From Pseudothauera rhizosphaerae (lineage in GTDB: Bacteria; Pseudomonadota; Gammaproteobacteria; Burkholderiales; Rhodocyclaceae), in assembly GCF_004801305.1 (NCBI RefSeq), contig NZ_SSOD01000003.1, forward strand, positions 62,001 to 126,000: 64,000 nt of DNA. Reading direction: 5' to 3'. A program made the position numbers and the translations under genes. The stretch's first letter is position 1. The number at the start of each line of letters is the position of its first letter. The notes under the pieces are model-generated. The model was not told the origin of the DNA and made no database searches. It was given only the letters and a program-made list of their open reading frames with translations. Below, in pieces: positions 3,486 through 48,624 of this stretch.

Positions 3486-4118
3486 GTGCATCCCCACGGC
3501 ATGCCGCCCGAACTCTTCGCCAGCCAGCAGTTGCGCCGCTACGCCCGCGGCGAGTTCATCTGCACGCCGGGCCGGCGCAGCGATTCGGTGTTCCTGCTGC
3601 AGGACGGGCGTGCCCGCGTGTTCCTGGCCGGAGAAGGCAAGGAACTGACGCTGGCCTTCCTGGAACCGGGCGAAATCTTCTCCACCCACAGCCGCGCCTG
3701 GGTGGAGGCGGTGACCGACTGCCGCGTGCAGGTGGCCGACACGGCGAGCTTCCGCGCCCGCCTGCTGGCCGAGCCCCAGCTCACCCCGGTGGTCATCCGC
3801 GTGCTGGCGCGCCTGCTCGCGGGCTCCATCGACATCATCGAGAACCTCGCCTTCCGCGACGTGCCGGCGCGGCTGGCCAACTTTCTGCTGGGCCTCGCGC
3901 GCGCGGCCGATCCGGCGCTGCCGCCCGGCCTGCGCGTGCCGCTGGCGCTGCGCACCGAGGACATCGCCCGCCTGCTCGGCACCACGCGCCAGACCGTGTC
4001 CTCGCTCATCGCCCAACTGGTGCGCGACGGCGTGCTCGCGCGGGAAGGCCGGCGCACCCTGGTGGTGCGCGATCCGGCCGAACTGCAGCGCCGCGCGGGC
4101 GGTCTGTCGGCTGGCTGA
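3486..4118 (+). CDS. Crp/Fnr-family regulator resembling the CO sensor CooA
   Basis: The protein is about 210 residues: an N-terminal cyclic-nucleotide-fold sensor domain, a dimerization helix and a C-terminal Crp HTH (TEDIARLLGTTRQTVSSL). From memory of Rhodospirillum rubrum CooA, the match runs through the sensor domain: IFSTHSRAWVEA here against MFCMHSGCLVEA, which keeps the proximal heme ligand His (His68 from the GTG start) but has Ser in place of Cys75. The recognition helix keeps the RQT of CooA. The GTG at 3486 has a good Shine-Dalgarno (ggagg, about 8 bases upstream). An in-frame ATG at 3501 would give a protein beginning MPP, like CooA, whose Pro2 is the other heme ligand. A perfect inverted repeat overlaps its stop codon, in front of cowN. 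Heme binding is inferred. Confidence 0.82.
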   Translation: MHPHGMPPELFASQQLRRYARGEFICTPGRRSDSVFLLQDGRARVFLAGEGKELTLAFLEPGEIFSTHSRAWVEAVTDCRVQVADTASFRARLLAEPQLTPVVIRVLARLLAGSIDIIENLAFRDVPARLANFLLGLARAADPALPPGLRVPLALRTEDIARLLGTTRQTVSSLIAQLVRDGVLAREGRRTLVVRDPAELQRRAGGLSAG

Positions 4119-5463: not shown

Positions 5464-5850
5464 TCAGTGCCCCCGCGCGTAATCGACCATGCCCTGGAAA
5501 TCCACCACCACCGCGGGTTCGTCCCCCACCACCCAGGCGTCGTGACCCGACGGCAGCAGAGAAACATCTCCCGGCCGGCATTCCAGTTCGGTGCCGTCGT
5601 CCATGCGCACCATCAGGATGCCGGAGACGTGGTACTGGAAGTGCGGCGCCTCGCAGCTCGCGGTCCGCGCGATCGGCTTCACCGACTCCGACCAGCGCCA
5701 GCCGGGCTGGAACACGGCGCGGCCTATCATGGCGCCGCCCACCTTCACCAGCTCCAGGCGGCCCTTGGGAAATTCGCGGATTTCGTCGGGCCGGTCGAAG
5801 GCCTTGAGTTCGGCGCGTTCGTCGAGCGTGCTTGCCACTTGCGTGTTCAT
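5464..5850 (-). CDS. Cupin-domain protein
   Basis: The 128-residue protein (start MNTQVASTLDE, preceded by GGAGG five to six bases upstream) has a single cupin barrel. The motifs HFQYHVSGILMVRMDDGTE and PGDVSLLPSGHDAWVVGDE place two His in the usual metal-binding region. An upstream in-frame start would overlap the preceding gene and is less likely. It follows the 5862-6218 gene by 11 bases and is probably co-transcribed. No specific substrate can be assigned. Confidence 0.82.
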   Translation of the reverse strand: MNTQVASTLDERAELKAFDRPDEIREFPKGRLELVKVGGAMIGRAVFQPGWRWSESVKPIARTASCEAPHFQYHVSGILMVRMDDGTELECRPGDVSLLPSGHDAWVVGDEPAVVVDFQGMVDYARGH

Positions 5851-5861
5851 GGAAACCTCCT

Positions 5862-6218
5862 TCAGTCCTGGCCGGCAACCGCCCAGTATTCCTGCGGCGG
5901 CTTGCCTTCGTCGCGCCGGATGACCGTGGCGTCCAGCTTGTCGCCGCGCACCTGGCCGTTCCATTCCAGGCTGCCGTAACGGGAGCTGCGGGTTTCGCAG
6001 GAGAAGCGGATCGCGTCGCCTTCCCGCGTCGCCGTGTAGGGCGCTCCCCCGTAGCCGTATTCCTCGCAGGCGGTCGAGCTGAAGCGGCCGTCGGCGAAGA
6101 CCAGGGTGTCCGCGTCGCCGCTGGTCTGGCCCTTTTCGAGGATCACCCCGGCGAAGCGCCTGCCGTCCAGCAGACCGGCGGCCGTGCCGGTGGCCGTGTT
6201 TTCGAGTGTCTGTGCCAT
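5862..6218 (-). CDS. Conserved hypothetical protein, 118 residues
   Basis: A small soluble protein without a signal peptide or membrane segment. It has alternating hydrophobic/polar stretches (TLVFADGRFSSTACEEYGYG, IRFSCETRSSRYGSLEWNG) typical of a small beta-barrel. Two Cys residues lie in the two strands. It starts with a good Shine-Dalgarno (GGAGGAC) and is the first gene of a two-gene unit with the cupin gene. I do not recognise a named family. Confidence 0.75.
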   Translation of the reverse strand: MAQTLENTATGTAAGLLDGRRFAGVILEKGQTSGDADTLVFADGRFSSTACEEYGYGGAPYTATREGDAIRFSCETRSSRYGSLEWNGQVRGDKLDATVIRRDEGKPPQEYWAVAGQD

Positions 6219-6354: not shown

Positions 6355-7464
6355 ATGCCCGCATCCACGCACGGCGCCCAGGGGCGTGCGCTCGGCTTTC
6401 TGCACCGCATGGCCGAACAGGCCGCGGCGGTGGCGCGCTTTGCGCGCGAAGGCGTGGACGGCCTGCCGGAGCTGGTGGATTCGGAACTCACCACGCTGTC
6501 GATCTGCGATCTGGTGCGCGGCCGGCGCACCGTGTACAGCAGCGACCCCGGCGCCATCGGCCGGGAGGAGCGGGCGATCTTCGACCGCATGTTCTTCGAC
6601 CACCCGCTGGTGCAGTACCACGCCGCCCACCCGCGCGGCGCCACGCGCAAGATCAGCGATTCCCTGCCGTCCGCGCGCTTTCACCGCACCGAGCTGTACA
6701 ACGAGTACTACCGCCGCATCGGCATCGACCATGTGATGGCCATGCCGCTGTTCGTGGACCAGCACCTGCTGGTGAGCTTCGTCGTGCAGCGCAGCGGGCG
6801 GGATTACGACGAACGGGAGCGTGCGCTGCTGGACCTGGTGCGCCCGCAACTGGCGCTCATGTTCCGCCACGCGCTGGCGCTGGAACGCCTGAGCGCCGCC
6901 GCGGCGCGGCTGGAAGAGGTGTGCGGCGAGGCCGGCTGGTACGAGATCGGCCTGGACCCGCTGCGCCGCGTGCGCCGCGCTTCGGAGCGCGCCGTGCTGC
7001 GCCTGGCGGGTTTCTGCGGCGGTGCGCGGGTGGTGCCCGGCCGCCGCTTGCCGGCGCAGATCGACCGCTGGCTGGCGACGCTGCTCGCCGACTCGCCCGA
7101 TCCGCTGCTGGGGCCGCGCACCGGCACGCTGCGCCTGGTCGAGGGCGACACGGAGCTGGACATCCACCTGCTGCCCGACGCCGCCGAGGCCGACGGCCAC
7201 CTGCTGCTGGTGGGCCGGCCGGTGGGCCGCGGTGTGGCCGCGCGCTTCGCCGACCTGCCGCTCACGGCCCGCGAGCGCGAGGTGCTGCAATGGGCCGCGG
7301 CCGGCAAGAGCAATCCGGAGATCGCCCTCATCCTGGGCGCCAGCCCGCGCACCGTGGAAAAGCACTTCGAGCACATCCTCGCCAAGCTCGGCGTGGAAAG
7401 CCGCACCGCGGCCGTGGTGCGGGGGCTGACGGTCGGCTGGGCGTCCGGCGGCCCGACCGGCTAA
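6355..7464 (+). CDS. LuxR-family transcriptional regulator
   Basis: The 369-residue protein has a large N-terminal region with no receiver-domain Asp. It may be a GAF-like sensor (FVDQHLLVSFVVQRSGRDYD, ERALLDLVRPQLALM). The C-terminal LuxR/GerE helix-turn-helix starts at LTAREREVLQWAAAGKSN and ends SPRTVEKHFEHILAKLGVES. It diverges from the 5862-6218 / cupin pair and may regulate it. Its 3' end overlaps the convergent GST gene by four bases. The signal is unknown. Confidence 0.85.
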   Translation: MPASTHGAQGRALGFLHRMAEQAAAVARFAREGVDGLPELVDSELTTLSICDLVRGRRTVYSSDPGAIGREERAIFDRMFFDHPLVQYHAAHPRGATRKISDSLPSARFHRTELYNEYYRRIGIDHVMAMPLFVDQHLLVSFVVQRSGRDYDERERALLDLVRPQLALMFRHALALERLSAAAARLEEVCGEAGWYEIGLDPLRRVRRASERAVLRLAGFCGGARVVPGRRLPAQIDRWLATLLADSPDPLLGPRTGTLRLVEGDTELDIHLLPDAAEADGHLLLVGRPVGRGVAARFADLPLTAREREVLQWAAAGKSNPEIALILGASPRTVEKHFEHILAKLGVESRTAAVVRGLTVGWASGGPTG

Positions 7465-40912: not shown

Positions 40913-41217
40913 ATGATTCCAGGTGAAATCCTGCCGGCCGACGGCGACATCGAACTCAACGCCGGCCGCGCCACGCTGACGCTGTCGGTCACCAACACCG
41001 GCGACCGGCCGATACAGGTCGGCTCCCACTACCACTTCGCCGAAACCAACGCCGCGCTCGCCTTCGACCGCGCCGCGGCGCGCGGTTTCCGGCTCAACAT
41101 CGCCGCCGGCACCGCGGTGCGCTTCGAGCCGGGGCAGTCGCGCACCGTGGAACTGGTCGCGCTCGCCGGTGCGCGCAAGGTTTACGGCTTCAACGGCGAC
41201 GTGATGGGAGCACTGTG

Positions 41218-41218
<1 letters not shown>
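40913..41218 (+). CDS. ureB: Urease beta subunit UreB
   Basis: The 101-residue protein has the UreB pattern: [77 protein letters not shown]. Standard length for a separate beta subunit. Its stop overlaps the ureC ATG by one base. Confidence 0.97.
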
Positions 41219-42993
<1,775 letters not shown>

Positions 42994-43006
42994 TGGGAAG
43001 AGGATC

Positions 43007-43546
43007 ATGATCGCCACCGATATTCCGCCTGTCGCAGAAACCGCCGTCCGGAACTCCGCCATGCTGCTGATCGAACACCTCCACACCGGCCACGGGGTGG
43101 CCGGCGAACAACTGGAACTGTCCTTCGAATACCGCACCAAGAGCAGGCTGCGCGCCAGACTCAAGTCCGGCGAGGAAGTGGGCCTGTTCCTGCCCCGCGG
43201 CACCATCCTGCGCGGCGGCATGAAGCTCGCCGCGGCCGACGGGCGCATCGTCGAGGTGGTGGCCGCCCCCGAGGAACTGCTGGAAGTGCGCTGCGCGGAC
43301 GCCTTCGAACTCGCCCGCGCCGCCTACCACCTGGGCAACCGGCACGTGGCGGTGGAACTGGGCGAAAGCTGGCTGCGCATCCAGGCCGACCACGTGCTGG
43401 AAGACATGCTCGCCGGCCTGGGCGCCTCGGTGGCGCCGGTCACCGCGCCCTTCGAGCCGGAAGCCGGCGCATACTCCCACGGCCACCAGCACGAAGGCGA
43501 AGGCGCCAAGGGCGCGCGCATCCACATGATGGACGGCAACTACTAG
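43007..43546 (+). CDS. ureE: Urease accessory protein UreE (nickel chaperone)
   Basis: The 179-residue protein has the UreE two-domain layout: a peptide-binding N-domain ([40 protein letters not shown]) and a metal-binding C-domain ([35 protein letters not shown]). The GNRH His is the conserved interface nickel ligand. The C-terminal tail is only moderately His-rich ([11 protein letters not shown]). The start at 43007 follows aagagg. Confidence 0.95.
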
Positions 43547-43557
43547 GCCGCGCCGCC

Positions 43558-44277
43558 ATGCTGCCCCTGGTGCGCCTGCTGCAACTGGTCAGCCCCGCCT
43601 TGCCGGTGGGCGCCTACACCTATTCCCAGGGGATGGAATGGGCCGTGGAGGCCGGCATGGTGAGGAGCGAGGCCGACGCCGCGCGCTGGATCGGCGACCT
43701 GCTGGAGCACGGCATCGGCGCCTTCGAGGCCCCGCTCGCCGCCCGTCTGCTGGCGGCATGGACGCAGGCGGACGAAAGCGAGGGCGGCTGCGGCAGCGAC
43801 GCGAGCGAGGCGGAACGGGAGATCGCCGCCCTCAACGCCGACTTCCTCGCCAGCCGCGAAACCGCCGAGCTGCGCGCCGAGACCGTGCAGATGGGCTATT
43901 CGCTGGTGCGCCTGCTGACCGGGCTGCCGGCCTTCGCCGGACTGCCCGGCTGGGCGGCGCGGCTGGAGGCGGTGGAGGAACCGGCCTTTCCCACCGCCTG
44001 GACGGCCGCCGCGGCGGCATGGCGGGTGCCGCCCGAGGAGGCCATCGCCGCCTACCTGTGGGCCTGGGCCGAGAACCAGGTCATGGCGGCGATCAAGGCC
44101 GTGCCCCTGGGCCAGAGTGCCGGCCAGCGCCTGCTCGCCGGCCTGGGCGAGCGCATCCCGGCCCTGGCCGAACGGGCGCTGGCGCTGCCGCGCGCCCAGT
44201 GGAGCAATTTCTCGCCCGCGCTGGCCATCGCCAGCAGCCGGCACGAGACGCAGCACACCCGGCTGTTCCGTTCGTAA
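43558..44277 (+). CDS. ureF: Urease accessory protein UreF
   Basis: The 239-residue all-helical protein has UreF motifs: LVRLLQLVSPALPVGAYTYS, QGMEWAVEAGMVRSEADAAR, AETVQMGYSLVRLL, YLWAWAENQVMAAIKAVPLG and SPALAIASSRHETQHTRLFR. It acts as the gatekeeper in the UreDFG complex. It lies 11 bases after ureE. Confidence 0.95.
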   Translation: MLPLVRLLQLVSPALPVGAYTYSQGMEWAVEAGMVRSEADAARWIGDLLEHGIGAFEAPLAARLLAAWTQADESEGGCGSDASEAEREIAALNADFLASRETAELRAETVQMGYSLVRLLTGLPAFAGLPGWAARLEAVEEPAFPTAWTAAAAAWRVPPEEAIAAYLWAWAENQVMAAIKAVPLGQSAGQRLLAGLGERIPALAERALALPRAQWSNFSPALAIASSRHETQHTRLFRS

Positions 44278-44295
44278 ACGGTGTGGCCCCGCTAT

Positions 44296-44353
44296 CCGTT
44301 CGGGCTGAGCTCGTCGAAGCCCTCGTGCCCTTCGACAAGCTCAGGGCGAACGG
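44296..44353. repeat. Inverted repeat between ureF and ureG
   Basis: CCGTTCGGGCTGAGCTCGTCGAAG and CCTTCGACAAGCTCAGGGCGAACGG are near-perfect inverted complements around a nine-base loop. The arm CCCTTCGACAAGCTCAGGGCGAACGG is a dispersed repeat known in many proteobacteria. It separates ureG from the rest of the cluster. Confidence 0.75.
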
Positions 44354-44390
44354 ATCACTGTGAGCTTGATGACACAAGGAGCATTCGACA

Positions 44391-45014
<624 letters not shown>

Positions 45015-45883: not shown

Positions 45884-45984
45884 GCCGCAACCTTTCGCCG
45901 GCGGCGGGCACGGTGGGACGGCGTCGAACGACGGTGCATGGAGTTCTCCTCGCGCTGATGCAATTGTAGGGGCCATCGGGCATC

Positions 45985-46011
45985 GTCGTCCGGGCGTGGG
46001 CGAATCTTACA
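45985..46011 (-). promoter_or_regulatory. ECF-type promoter of the sigma factor gene
   Basis: On the minus strand TGTAAG (46011-46006), 17 bases, then CGAC (45988-45985). The same TGTAAG-N17-CGAC arrangement faces the other way at 46036-46062. Predicted start of transcription is near 45977. Autoregulation by the sigma factor is inferred. Confidence 0.72.
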
Positions 46012-46035
46012 GTCCGGCCGTACCCGCGAATGGCG

Positions 46036-46062
46036 TGTAAGGAATCGGCACCGTGCCTCGAC
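46036..46062 (+). promoter_or_regulatory. ECF-type promoter of the bufferin operon
   Basis: TGTAAG (46036-46041), 17 bases, CGAC (46059-46062), identical in elements and spacing to the divergent copy in front of the sigma gene. The predicted start near 46070 leaves a leader of about 64 bases before bufA. Confidence 0.72.
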
Positions 46063-46133: not shown

Positions 46134-46439
46134 ATGAACCGCACTACCGCCACCCGTCACGCCGCCGCCCTCGCGCTCGCCCTCGGCGCCGCGCTGACCC
46201 TGTCCACCGCGCCGGCGTCCGCCGCCGACGACGACAAGGAGAAATGTTACGGCGTCGCGATGAAGGGCAAGAACGACTGCGCCGCCGGTCCCGGCACCAC
46301 CTGCGCCGGCACGGCGAAGATGGACTACCAGGGCAATGCGTGGAAGTTCGTCCCCAAGGGCACCTGCGAGCAGATGAAGTCGCCCGCCTCGCCCACCGGC
46401 CAGGGGCAGTTGATGCCGTTCCAGGAAAAGAAGTCCTGA
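46134..46439 (+). CDS. bufA: BufA-type bufferin (DUF2282), periplasmic peptide metallophore precursor
   Basis: The 101-residue protein has a signal peptide (about residues 1-31, ending APASAA). The short mature region has four Cys ([33 protein letters not shown]), the DUF2282 pattern. In bufferins these Cys are modified by the DUF692 enzyme to bind copper or other metals. The start at 46134 follows caggagag. First gene of bufABC-doxX. Confidence 0.92.
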
Positions 46440-46464: not shown

Positions 46465-47352
46465 ATGACGACCATCGTCCCTTGCGCATCGTCCGCGGCG
46501 GGCGTTGCCGCGCTGCCGGCCCGGGCCGGGCTCGGGCTCAAGCCGGCGCACGTCCGGCAGATCCTCGACACCCGGCCCGCGGTGGGCTTCTTCGAAGTGC
46601 ACGCGGAGAACTACATGGTGGCCGGCGGGCCGTTCCACGAACATCTGGCCCGCATCCGCGCACACTATCCCCTATCGATCCACGGCGTGGGCCTGTCCAT
46701 CGGCGGCGAGGAGCCGCTGGACGAGGCGCATCTGGACCGGCTCGCCGCGCTGCTGGGACGCTACGCGCCGCAGGCCTTTTCCGAGCATCTCGCCTGGTCC
46801 GGCCACGGCGGCGCCTTCTTCAACGACCTGCTGCCGCTGCCCTGGACGCCGCAAACCCTCGCCCGCGTCTGCGACCACGTGGACCGGGTGCAGGAGCGCC
46901 TGCGCCGGCCCATGCTGCTGGAGAATCCGGCGACCTACGTGGAATTCGCCGAATCCACGCTGGGCGAGGCGGAGTTCATCGCCGAGGTGGTGCGCCGCAC
47001 CGGCTGCGGCCTGCTGCTGGACGTGAACAATGCCTACGTGTCCTGCACGAACCACGGGAGCGATGCGCGTGCCTACGTGCAGGCCCTGCCGCTGGGGGCG
47101 GTGGGGGAAATCCACCTGGCCGGCTTCGCCCGCCAGCAGGATGCCGCGGGCGCCGACCTGCTGATCGACAGCCACGGCTCGCCGGTGGATCGCGCGGTAT
47201 GGGCGCTCTACGCCTTCGCGCTGGAACGGCTCGGCCCGACGCCGACGCTGATCGAGCGCGACCACGACATTCCGCCGTTCGACACCTTGCTGGGCGAGGC
47301 CCGCGAGGCCGAGCGCCTGCTCGCGGCGCGCGACGAGGCGGTGCCCGCATGA
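46465..47352 (+). CDS. bufB: BufB, DUF692 multinuclear iron oxidase (MNIO)
   Basis: The 295-residue TIM-barrel enzyme has DUF692 motifs: [106 protein letters not shown] and [12 protein letters not shown]. The His, Glu and Asp residues are the iron ligands. It is expected to modify Cys in BufA. It overlaps bufC by four bases (ATGA). Confidence 0.94.
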
Positions 47353-48131
47353 CGACGCAAACGGAATTCGCCGCCGCCCTGCTGGATGCGGGGCTGCCCT
47401 GTCCGCCCGGGCTGGTGGCGTGGAACGGCTCGGACCCGGCACTGCGCTTCGCGGTGTATCGCAACAACGTGGTGGTGTCCCTGGTGGATGCGCTGGCGGA
47501 CAGCTTTCCGGTGACGCGCGCGCTGGTGGGTGACGACTTCTTTGGCGCCATGGCGCAGGTTTACGTCACGGCGGCGCCGCCGCGCTCGCGGCTGCTGGCG
47601 TTCTATGGCGAGGGCTTCGCGGACTTCGTCGCCGCCTTCCCGCCCGCCGCGGCACTGCCCTGGCTGGCCGACGTGGCCCGGCTGGAGATGCTGCGCGTGC
47701 GTGTCTGCCACGCGGCCGATGCGGAGCCGCTGCCGGACGCGGAACTGGCAGCATTGCTCGGCGATCCGGGCCGCCTTCCCCTGCTGCGCTTGGTGCTGCA
47801 CCCGGCGCTCGGCGTGCTGCGCTCGCCCCATGCGGTGGTGGATCTGTGGGCCGCGCACCAGGTTGAGGAGGTGGACCTTTCCGCGGTCGACCCGGCCAGC
47901 GCCCAGGCGGCGCTGGTCGTGCGTGCCGGCGGCGAGGTGTATGTGGTCGCGCTGCCCGCGGCAGCCGCGGCCTTCATCGAGCGCGTGCAGGCAGGGGCGA
48001 CGCTGGGCGACGCATTCGCGGTCGCGGAGCCCGGCCTGGATGCGGCGGATGCGCTGGCGACCCTGCTGCGCTGGCGGGCCATCGTCGCCATCGGGGAAGG
48101 AGGGCCGGAACATGAATGGCAGCACGAATGA
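47349..48131 (+). CDS. bufC: BufC, DUF2063 partner protein of the MNIO enzyme
   Basis: The 260-residue protein has the DUF2063 N-terminal domain: [72 protein letters not shown]. Such proteins bind the precursor peptide for the DUF692 enzyme. It is translationally coupled with bufB (ATGA overlap) and overlaps the DoxX gene by 20 bases. Confidence 0.92.
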
Positions 48132-48624
48132 CCCATCCGCGCCGCCCGCGGCTGCCGCGCTGGTGAGGCGGCTGGTGGCCCTGTGCGGCCGGGTGCCGGC
48201 GGACCTGATCGCCGCCGTCGGACGTTTCTCCATCGCCGGCGTGTTCTGGCGGTCCGGCCAGACCAAGATCGAGGGCCTTGCCATCGACCTGGTCGAAGGC
48301 GAATTCAGCCTGGGCTGGCCGCGGCTGGCGGACAGCGCGGTGTACCTGTTCCGCGAGGAATACCGACTGCCGCTGATCCCCCCGGAACTCGCCGCGCCCC
48401 TGGCGGCCTTCGCCGAGCACCTGTTTCCCGTGCTGCTGCTGGTCGGTCTGGCGACCCGCTTCTCCGCCCTGGCGCTGCTGGGGATGACGCTGGTGATCCA
48501 GGTGCTGGTCTATCCCGGCGCCTGGCCCACCCACGGCGTGTGGGCGGCGGTGCTGCTGTACCTGATCGCGCACGGGCCGGGGCGCTTGTCCTTGGATCAC
48601 TGGATCGTGCGCCGCTGGGCCTGA
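48112..48624 (+). CDS. DoxX-family membrane protein
   Basis: The 170-residue protein has four hydrophobic helices with DoxX features: [79 protein letters not shown]. DoxX proteins are usual last members of bufferin operons. The start overlaps the end of bufC by 20 bases. Confidence 0.9.

Follow-up and report, generated by a model that had tools for sequence, protein, structure and literature searches.

A divergent ECF sigma/ZAS anti-sigma pair and bufferin operon in Pseudothauera rhizosphaerae, with predicted promoters facing both ways and a correspondence of sensor and promoter type across bufferin loci

The sigmaE factor of Neisseria meningitidis recognizes promoters with a -35 element GTMAGBWTT and a -10 element CGTCTAAH, separated by 12-13 nt, and is autoregulated; MseR carries Cys4, His30, Cys34 and Cys37 (PMC2893595). 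Meningococcal sigmaE was described as giving no response to peroxide, diamide or singlet oxygen (PMC2893595), and peroxide is cited as its inducer in a report in which sigmaE/RpoE2-type factors bear the group name ECF group 13 (PMC7907618). For Cupriavidus metallidurans, control of the gig genes by RpoQ is presented as an assumption, and rpoQ itself is read by the housekeeping sigma factor (PMC10304878). The sigF gene of Caulobacter is not strongly autoregulated (PMC3511200), and around 55% of ECF sigma factors are predicted to be autoregulated (PMC8103513). The main text of a survey of MNIO enzymes mentions sigma factors and NrsF, with zf-HC2 absent from it (PMC12452194).

The window analysed here is a stretch of 64,000 nucleotides from Pseudothauera rhizosphaerae (contig NZ_SSOD01000003.1). 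It holds a sigma/anti-sigma gene pair and, divergently oriented, the operon bufABC-doxX (Table 1). The gene identities put forward in the original prediction (ECF sigma factor, zf-HC2 anti-sigma factor and bufferin operon) were borne out by profile matches. The content of the Buf1 bufferin cluster was complete, with a four-Cys DUF2282 precursor, MNIO, DUF2063 and DoxX genes together; the signal peptide of BufA was judged by eye only. The last bases of the sigma gene are shared with the start of the anti-sigma gene. Both starts were picked by reading, as ATG 45263 for the anti-sigma gene and as the ATG preceded by AAAGG for the sigma gene, the longer in-frame start at 45976 being nearly leaderless. 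The anti-sigma protein also matched the NF052368 anti-sigma family (74.5 bits, cut-off 50), and Cys4, His30, Cys34 and Cys37 were checked on the sequence; by reading alone, a long hydrophobic stretch is absent. A search for solved structures found none for the anti-sigma factor and distant ECF sigma factors only for the sigma factor. At an E value of 0.001 or lower, the sigma model gave five matches in the genome, the strongest of the listed matches besides this sigma factor reaching 59 bits. Urease genes (ureC to ureG by reading, with a CobW/HypB/UreG match; window positions 41215-45014) adjoin the anti-sigma gene and are convergent with it.

Table 1. Positions of genes and promoter motifs in the window, and of codon-embedded motifs in related loci
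Feature	Position	Strand	Remarks
Soluble zinc-finger (ZAS) anti-sigma factor, 77 aa	45030..45263	-	zf-HC2 28.3 bits, cut-off 22.2
ECF sigma factor, 208 aa	45257..45883	-	Sigma70_r2, Sigma70_r4_2; TIGR02943 255 bits, cut-off 162
Putative sigma-side promoter motif, TGTAAG (-35) N17 CGAC (-10)	45985..46011	-	faces sigma gene
Putative bufA-side promoter motif, TGTAAG N17 CGAC TGA	46036..46062	+	faces bufA
bufA, DUF2282 (Buf1) bufferin precursor	46134..46439	+	PF10048 91.3 bits; four cysteines
bufB, MNIO bufferin maturase	46465..47352	+	PF05114 352 bits; NF050167 MNIO_BufB 384.5 bits, cut-off 310
bufC, DUF2063 partner protein	47349..48131	+	PF09836 91.7 bits
doxX-like membrane protein gene	48112..48624	+	PF07681 60.2 bits
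Codon-embedded motif	L035 6896-6921		corresponding places in L026, L036, L041, L043, L050, L057, L058, L117
Codon-embedded motif, further loci			L159, L180, L193, L195, L202, L204, L217-L219, L222-L226, L228

Between the sigma gene and bufA, TGTAAG-N17-CGAC had been claimed on both strands, 24 bases apart. Pattern search confirmed this with exact coordinates, and the two sites were the only matches in the window. Dinucleotide shuffling (100 shuffles) gave a mean of 0.05 matches per window and none with two, a figure that is generous if taken alone, as the pattern was picked after the sequence had been seen. A scoring matrix was built from 24 sites in relatives, the six genomes assigned to the genus contributing none. 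It ranked the bufA-side motif first in the window (27.5) and the sigma-side motif second (20.8), followed by a score of 13.7; because the training sites were gathered with the same core pattern, this is agreement rather than rediscovery. The equal spacing of the two motifs, pointed out originally, means little, since the relatives use N16 (19/24 training sites) or N17 (5/24). A stricter pattern, GTAAGR-N15-16-CGACTNA, composed after both of its matching sites were known, matched twice in the genome, before bufA and msrP, and not at all in the control. The sigma-side site did not fit this pattern and is without TAA-like bases after CGAC.

The bare core was not enriched in the 4.6 Mb genome. TGTAAG-N16-18-CGAC matched 4 times, compared with 10 times for the reversed control, and the wider TGTAAG-N15-18-CGWC 7 times, compared with 26. 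A regulon scan by the bare core motif alone was rejected, as the reversed control was commoner than the real pattern. The N16 match, on contig C19, falls inside long reading frames; three other matches of the wider pattern, on contigs C4, C5 and C21, have spacers of 15 or 18.

Sensor type was compared with promoter type across bufferin loci. Among 274 genomes drawn from the class, DUF2282 was found in 77 (93 places). A TIGR02943-type sigma factor of at least 130 bits, the threshold of our list of strong sigma matches (37 places), lay within 6 kb in eight of these genomes (six above the cut-off, two just below) and NrsF within 6 kb in four, the remaining 65 showing neither match at that distance. 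These twelve, together with eight bufA-bearing loci of the sigma scan and one further locus of the genus (L167), made up 21 bufferin loci, 17 of ZAS type and four of NrsF type; two of the latter (L163 and L164) belong to one genus. The sigma scan left 27 weak matches to distant sigma factors (L060-L086) out of 80 loci, and removal of identical loci reduced 82 to 79. A ZAS motif was present behind the sigma gene in 68 of these 79 distinct loci and in 16 of the 17 ZAS-type bufferin loci, the contig of L007 ending first.

Wherever one of the motifs was present, promoter type followed the sensor. NGTAAG-N16/17-CGWC faced bufA in 15/17 ZAS-type loci, including the window, and in 0/4 NrsF-type loci; its -35 element was TGTAAG in 14 and CGTAAG in L011, and the motif was absent in L159 and L160. 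GTAAC-N16/17-CGAA faced bufA in 4/4 NrsF-type and 0/17 ZAS-type loci. Crossovers among the 21 loci were zero, and Markov-resampled sequence gave chance expectations of 0.07 and 0.03 loci of 21 for the two patterns, respectively. In the window, no GTAAC...CGAA with N16-17 occurred in either direction in the 500 nt before bufA. NrsF (PF06532) had no match in this genome at E 0.001, in agreement with the earlier statement that the sensor here differs from NrsF. That the sigma factor would control the bufferin operon, also proposed originally, is supported by the matrix scores and by the sensor/promoter match over the 21 loci. A second motif facing away from bufA was seen in all three genus members with bufA that were examined (the window, L007 and L167). 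Three of the four NrsF loci likewise had a GTAAC-type motif facing away, and L161 had an AGTAAG match in that orientation. The back-to-back layout thus recurs with either sensor. In L156, an identical promoter motif with its flanks occurs twice before bufA, at 6901 and 6980 (-), 79 bases apart, as a tandem promoter duplication.

One locus appears to separate the history of the operon from that of its regulator. The bufferin operon of L166 is near Gallionella/Ferrovum-type operons, yet its regulator and promoter are of NrsF type. In a BufB tree of 19 rows, L166 fell within a ZAS-type clade (support 100/99, then 96/88, 95/92 and 95/90), and a long-branch warning concerned other rows. The starred branches of the tree force at least two changes of sensor label; label shuffles on the tree were not significant, a result without bearing on the nesting of L166. 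At the DNA level, 2.3-2.4 kb of the L166 operon is 69-75% identical to L035, L036, L043 and L058. The similarity begins only at 3548-3626, downstream of the promoter motif of L166 at 3488, that is, between promoter and bufA. Read most simply, this means that the operon was retained while its regulator and promoter were swapped together. This apparent joint swap is the best evidence that the bufA motif is read by the neighbouring sigma factor.

The genome search for further TGTAAG-N17-CGAC sites suggested in the original prediction yielded one more, the third and last in the genome, on contig C9 directly before msrP-msrQ, the periplasmic methionine sulfoxide reductase operon. MsrP was assigned at 460 bits (cut-off 207) and MsrQ by reading only. 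Conservation was assessed at the 33 msrP places that came with the loci, other listed msrP places being left out. A motif match 55-70 nt upstream of msrP was present in 9/23 sigma-bearing genomes and absent in 14/23, and a match at a like distance was present in 1/10 genomes without the sigma factor (G061, 51 nt). In G061, no sigma factor was found at E 1e-30, in an assembly 85% complete in 730 contigs; G016, also without the sigma factor, had an AGTAAG match 384 nt from msrP. Within the genus the msrP motif was present in G000 and G004 and absent in G002 and G005, which carry the sigma factor, as well as in G001 and G003, which do not. With this proportion of sigma-bearing and sigma-less genomes, and a patchy distribution within the genus, msrP appears to be a recurrent but not a general target of the sigma factor.

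The motif was also seen before other genes in relatives. In stretches without a bufA match (L008 3723 (+) and 12872 (-), L009 7911 (+)), it precedes three kinds of gene, namely a fusion of a VTT domain with an FAD oxidoreductase, arsS (the arsenosugar radical SAM gene) and a gene for an ArsM-like methyltransferase. Back-to-back motif pairs separate a gene for a pyridine nucleotide oxidoreductase from a divergent frame in L052, L053 and L054 (around 5630-5760) and in L045 (5622-5638), which come from Novosphingobium and a gammaproteobacterial MAG. The oxidoreductase scored above the TIGR03169 cut-off in L045 and just below it in L052, those of L053 and L054 being alike by eye. Between the sigma gene and bufA of L058, with a motif at 5906 (-), is a frame of Asn-Pro-Cys-Ala repeats that by eye may encode another cysteine-rich peptide precursor.

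Self-control of the sigma gene was examined over 115 distinct sigma genes, pattern-picked from 149 candidate loci (28 yielded no gene, 7 yielded repeats only and one yielded two). The motif was upstream in 11 genes, including that of the window, inside the gene in 24, at neither place in 80 and at both in 0. The earlier scan found it upstream in 8/79 distinct loci; L051, with an upstream motif in that scan, is among the 28 loci in which no sigma gene was picked. General self-control of this kind of sigma factor was not borne out by these upstream counts. For the window, the proposal that the sigma factor drives itself is favoured by the exact core match before its gene and weakened by the lower score and weaker flanks of that site and by the rarity of upstream motifs, which are confined to few lineages. 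The motif also faces the sigma gene in L007 and L167. Transcription of its own gene and the anti-sigma gene by the window's sigma factor is likely but less certain than its predicted action on bufA.

Sequence within the sigma gene of relatives suggests another arrangement. Where Cys-Lys and [Pro/Ser/Ala/Thr]-Thr stand at fixed places in region 4.2, the codons read TGTAAG-N16-CGAC; in the genes for which our script located an anti-sigma start, this motif precedes it by 104-137 nt. In all, 23/24 genes with suitable residues carried this codon-embedded motif. The Cys codon was TGT in 24/24 and the Lys codon AAG in 23/24. The residue before Thr was P, S, A or T in 11, 7, 4 and 2 genes, and its codon ended in CG in 24/24; overall, 27% of codons of the P/S/A/T kind in these sigma genes end in G. 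A sample gathered after the hypothesis had been formed comprised 24 genes from 29 loci, found with a search profile that favoured the peptide, not the codons. In this sample, 12 of the 13 genes with suitable residues matched, compared with 0.82 expected from their own codon usage, one of the 12 repeating an earlier gene; as many codon-motif genes are related to one another, these counts lack independence. The rest of the 90 kb of sigma reading frames contained only three matches, in the extended 5' part of L007, L048 and L088, and these were also counted among the upstream motifs. Codon-embedded motifs were spread over Gallionella- and Ferrovum-like records, families f1, f2, f58, f149, f154 and f198, and one Phycisphaerae record. 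In the window's sigma gene the motif is absent, the residues there being CAKAGITANN.

Codon choice in region 4.2 is thus held while one amino acid varies, and we predict that these codons carry a copy of the promoter motif that the sigma factor itself reads. DNA of the relatives would then serve as protein code and promoter at once. Taken with the pattern of sensors and promoters, these observations lead us to favour, with a fair measure of reserve, a model in which bufferin operons are run by exchangeable cassettes, each made up of a sensor, a sigma factor and the promoter that fits it and swapped as a whole ahead of the same genes. Feedback in the ZAS type would take either of two forms that appear to exclude each other. 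In the first, to which the window belongs, a promoter would stand ahead of the sigma gene; in the second, it would lie within the codons for sigma region 4.2, which reads the -35 box, and would serve the anti-sigma gene alone.

For the window itself, we propose with considerable confidence that the ECF sigma factor, held by its soluble ZAS anti-sigma factor, drives bufABC-doxX, msrPQ and probably itself, the two motifs acting as divergent promoters. In the resting cell, homology suggests, the anti-sigma factor encoded behind the sigma gene would hold the sigma factor. Disturbance of its cysteine/zinc site, the probable causes being oxidation of the envelope or of thiols or an excess of a thiophilic metal, would free the sigma factor. 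It would then transcribe bufABC-doxX rightward, its own gene and that of the anti-sigma factor leftward, and msrPQ elsewhere in the genome. MsrPQ would repair oxidised periplasmic methionines. Bufferin would bind excess copper (PMC12452194). As predicted targets, bufA is well supported and msrP fairly well supported. Production of a copper-buffering peptide and periplasmic methionine repair would in this way be tied to one switch in environmental bacteria.

One alternative concerns the nature of the signal. The anti-sigma factor may be a sensor of metal (Cu, Zn or Au) rather than of redox state, with msrPQ as a side target, and this is quite possible, if short of an even chance: bufferins improve growth under copper stress (PMC12452194), and gig is induced by copper and gold (PMC10304878). 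Against a metal sensor stand the sharing of one promoter type by msrPQ and bufA, the response of H. influenzae RpoE2 and its DoxX/DUF2063 cluster to HOCl (PMC7907618), and the Cys4/His30/Cys34/Cys37 layout, which corresponds to that of the redox-sensing RsrA (PMC2893595). With msrPQ as second target, the signal leans towards envelope oxidation. Somewhat unlikely, in our judgement, is an arrangement in which only the bufA-side (and msrP) motif works, the sigma and anti-sigma genes being read constitutively by housekeeping RNA polymerase and the sigma-side motif being weak or inert. The lower matrix score of that site, its failure to fit the stricter pattern, the scarcity of upstream motifs and the precedents of rpoQ, which is not self-controlled, and sigF, which is not strongly so (PMC10304878, PMC3511200), would all suit such an arrangement. 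It is opposed by an exact match to the core, with roughly 0.05 expected per window, by the like-oriented motif in L007 and L167, the two other genus members with bufA that were examined, and by the autoregulation of Neisseria sigmaE (PMC2893595) and that predicted for over half of ECF sigma factors (PMC8103513).

The sigma-model matches elsewhere in the genome, four in number and weaker, indicate that other ECF sigma factors exist, and one of these might read the promoters, the neighbouring sigma factor being a bystander. We consider this very improbable, as, over the 21 loci, each type of neighbouring sigma/anti-sigma pair has its own promoter type, and a change of pair inside a single operon clade goes with a change of promoter. 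Chance resemblance without function has a negligible probability. The bare pattern is indeed no commoner in the genome than its reversed control, but the position, flanks and conservation across genera of the motifs led us to reject chance, and the promoter/sensor match over the bufferin loci makes it unlikely. We therefore retain the divergent-promoter proposal for the window, and offer as a candidate rule that NGTAAG-CGWC goes with a soluble zinc-finger sensor and GTAAC-CGAA with membrane NrsF. If this holds, regulation would be predictable from sequence.

Several features of the proposed system have precedents. A soluble ZAS anti-sigma factor over a bufferin-type operon is not in itself new, having been published for N. 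meningitidis (PMC2893595, PMC3240639) and H. influenzae (PMC7907618). An internal promoter for the anti-sigma gene is known from Corynebacterium glutamicum, where a SigH-dependent promoter inside sigH serves rshA only (PMC3489674). SigH/RshA thus shares with the relatives studied here a ZAS anti-sigma gene with a sigma-dependent promoter inside the sigma coding region, but its motif is not that of their codon promoter (PMC3489674). For the present sigma family, no report of an internal anti-sigma promoter was found among the papers listed by searches of the open-licence PMC literature. The published accounts consulted on these systems likewise did not show a divergent ZAS arrangement with a matching promoter pair, MsrPQ as a target or the sensor-promoter rule.

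Caulobacter sigmaF/NrsF also combines an ECF sigma factor with a small regulon, but its NrsF is a six-helix membrane protein with conserved, probably periplasmic cysteines, and its promoter, GTAACC-N16-CGAA, is near the motif of the four NrsF-type bufferin loci and unlike that of the window (PMC3511200). In C. metallidurans, gigPABT is a bufferin-type operon divergent from the ECF sigma/anti-sigma pair rpoQ-rsqA, as here; RsqA is predicted to be membrane-bound, however, and rpoQ depends on RpoD (PMC10304878). H. influenzae RpoE2/HrsE is an ECF sigma factor with a small cytoplasmic ZAS anti-sigma factor that controls DoxX/COG3767/COG3220/DUF2063 genes and msrAB and responds to HOCl; its target cluster, as we understand that account, lies apart from the rpoE2 region (PMC7907618). 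N. meningitidis sigmaE (NMB2144) and MseR (NMB2145), of operon NMB2140-2145, likewise form a pair of ECF sigma and soluble ZAS anti-sigma factors with the same Cys/His numbering. The promoter type also agrees, with GTAAG...CGTC at matching spacing (PMC2893595), and a methionine sulfoxide reductase is again the second target (PMC2893595, PMC3240639, PMC7907618). The sigma gene of N. meningitidis is in one operon with targets and the reductase is MsrA/B, whereas in the window the sigma gene is divergent, with two putative promoters and MsrPQ as predicted target. Traits of the sigmaE/MseR type found here are sigma regions 2 and 4, an adjacent small anti-sigma factor with Cys4 and H-x3-C-x2-C, and GTAAG/CGWC before the bufferin operon; a methionine sulfoxide reductase among the targets is indicated by the motif alone, as msrPQ rather than msrAB. 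From the published descriptions, Neisseria sigmaE/MseR and Haemophilus RpoE2/HrsE come closest to the system of the window, whose layout is that of Cupriavidus gig/rpoQ-rsqA.
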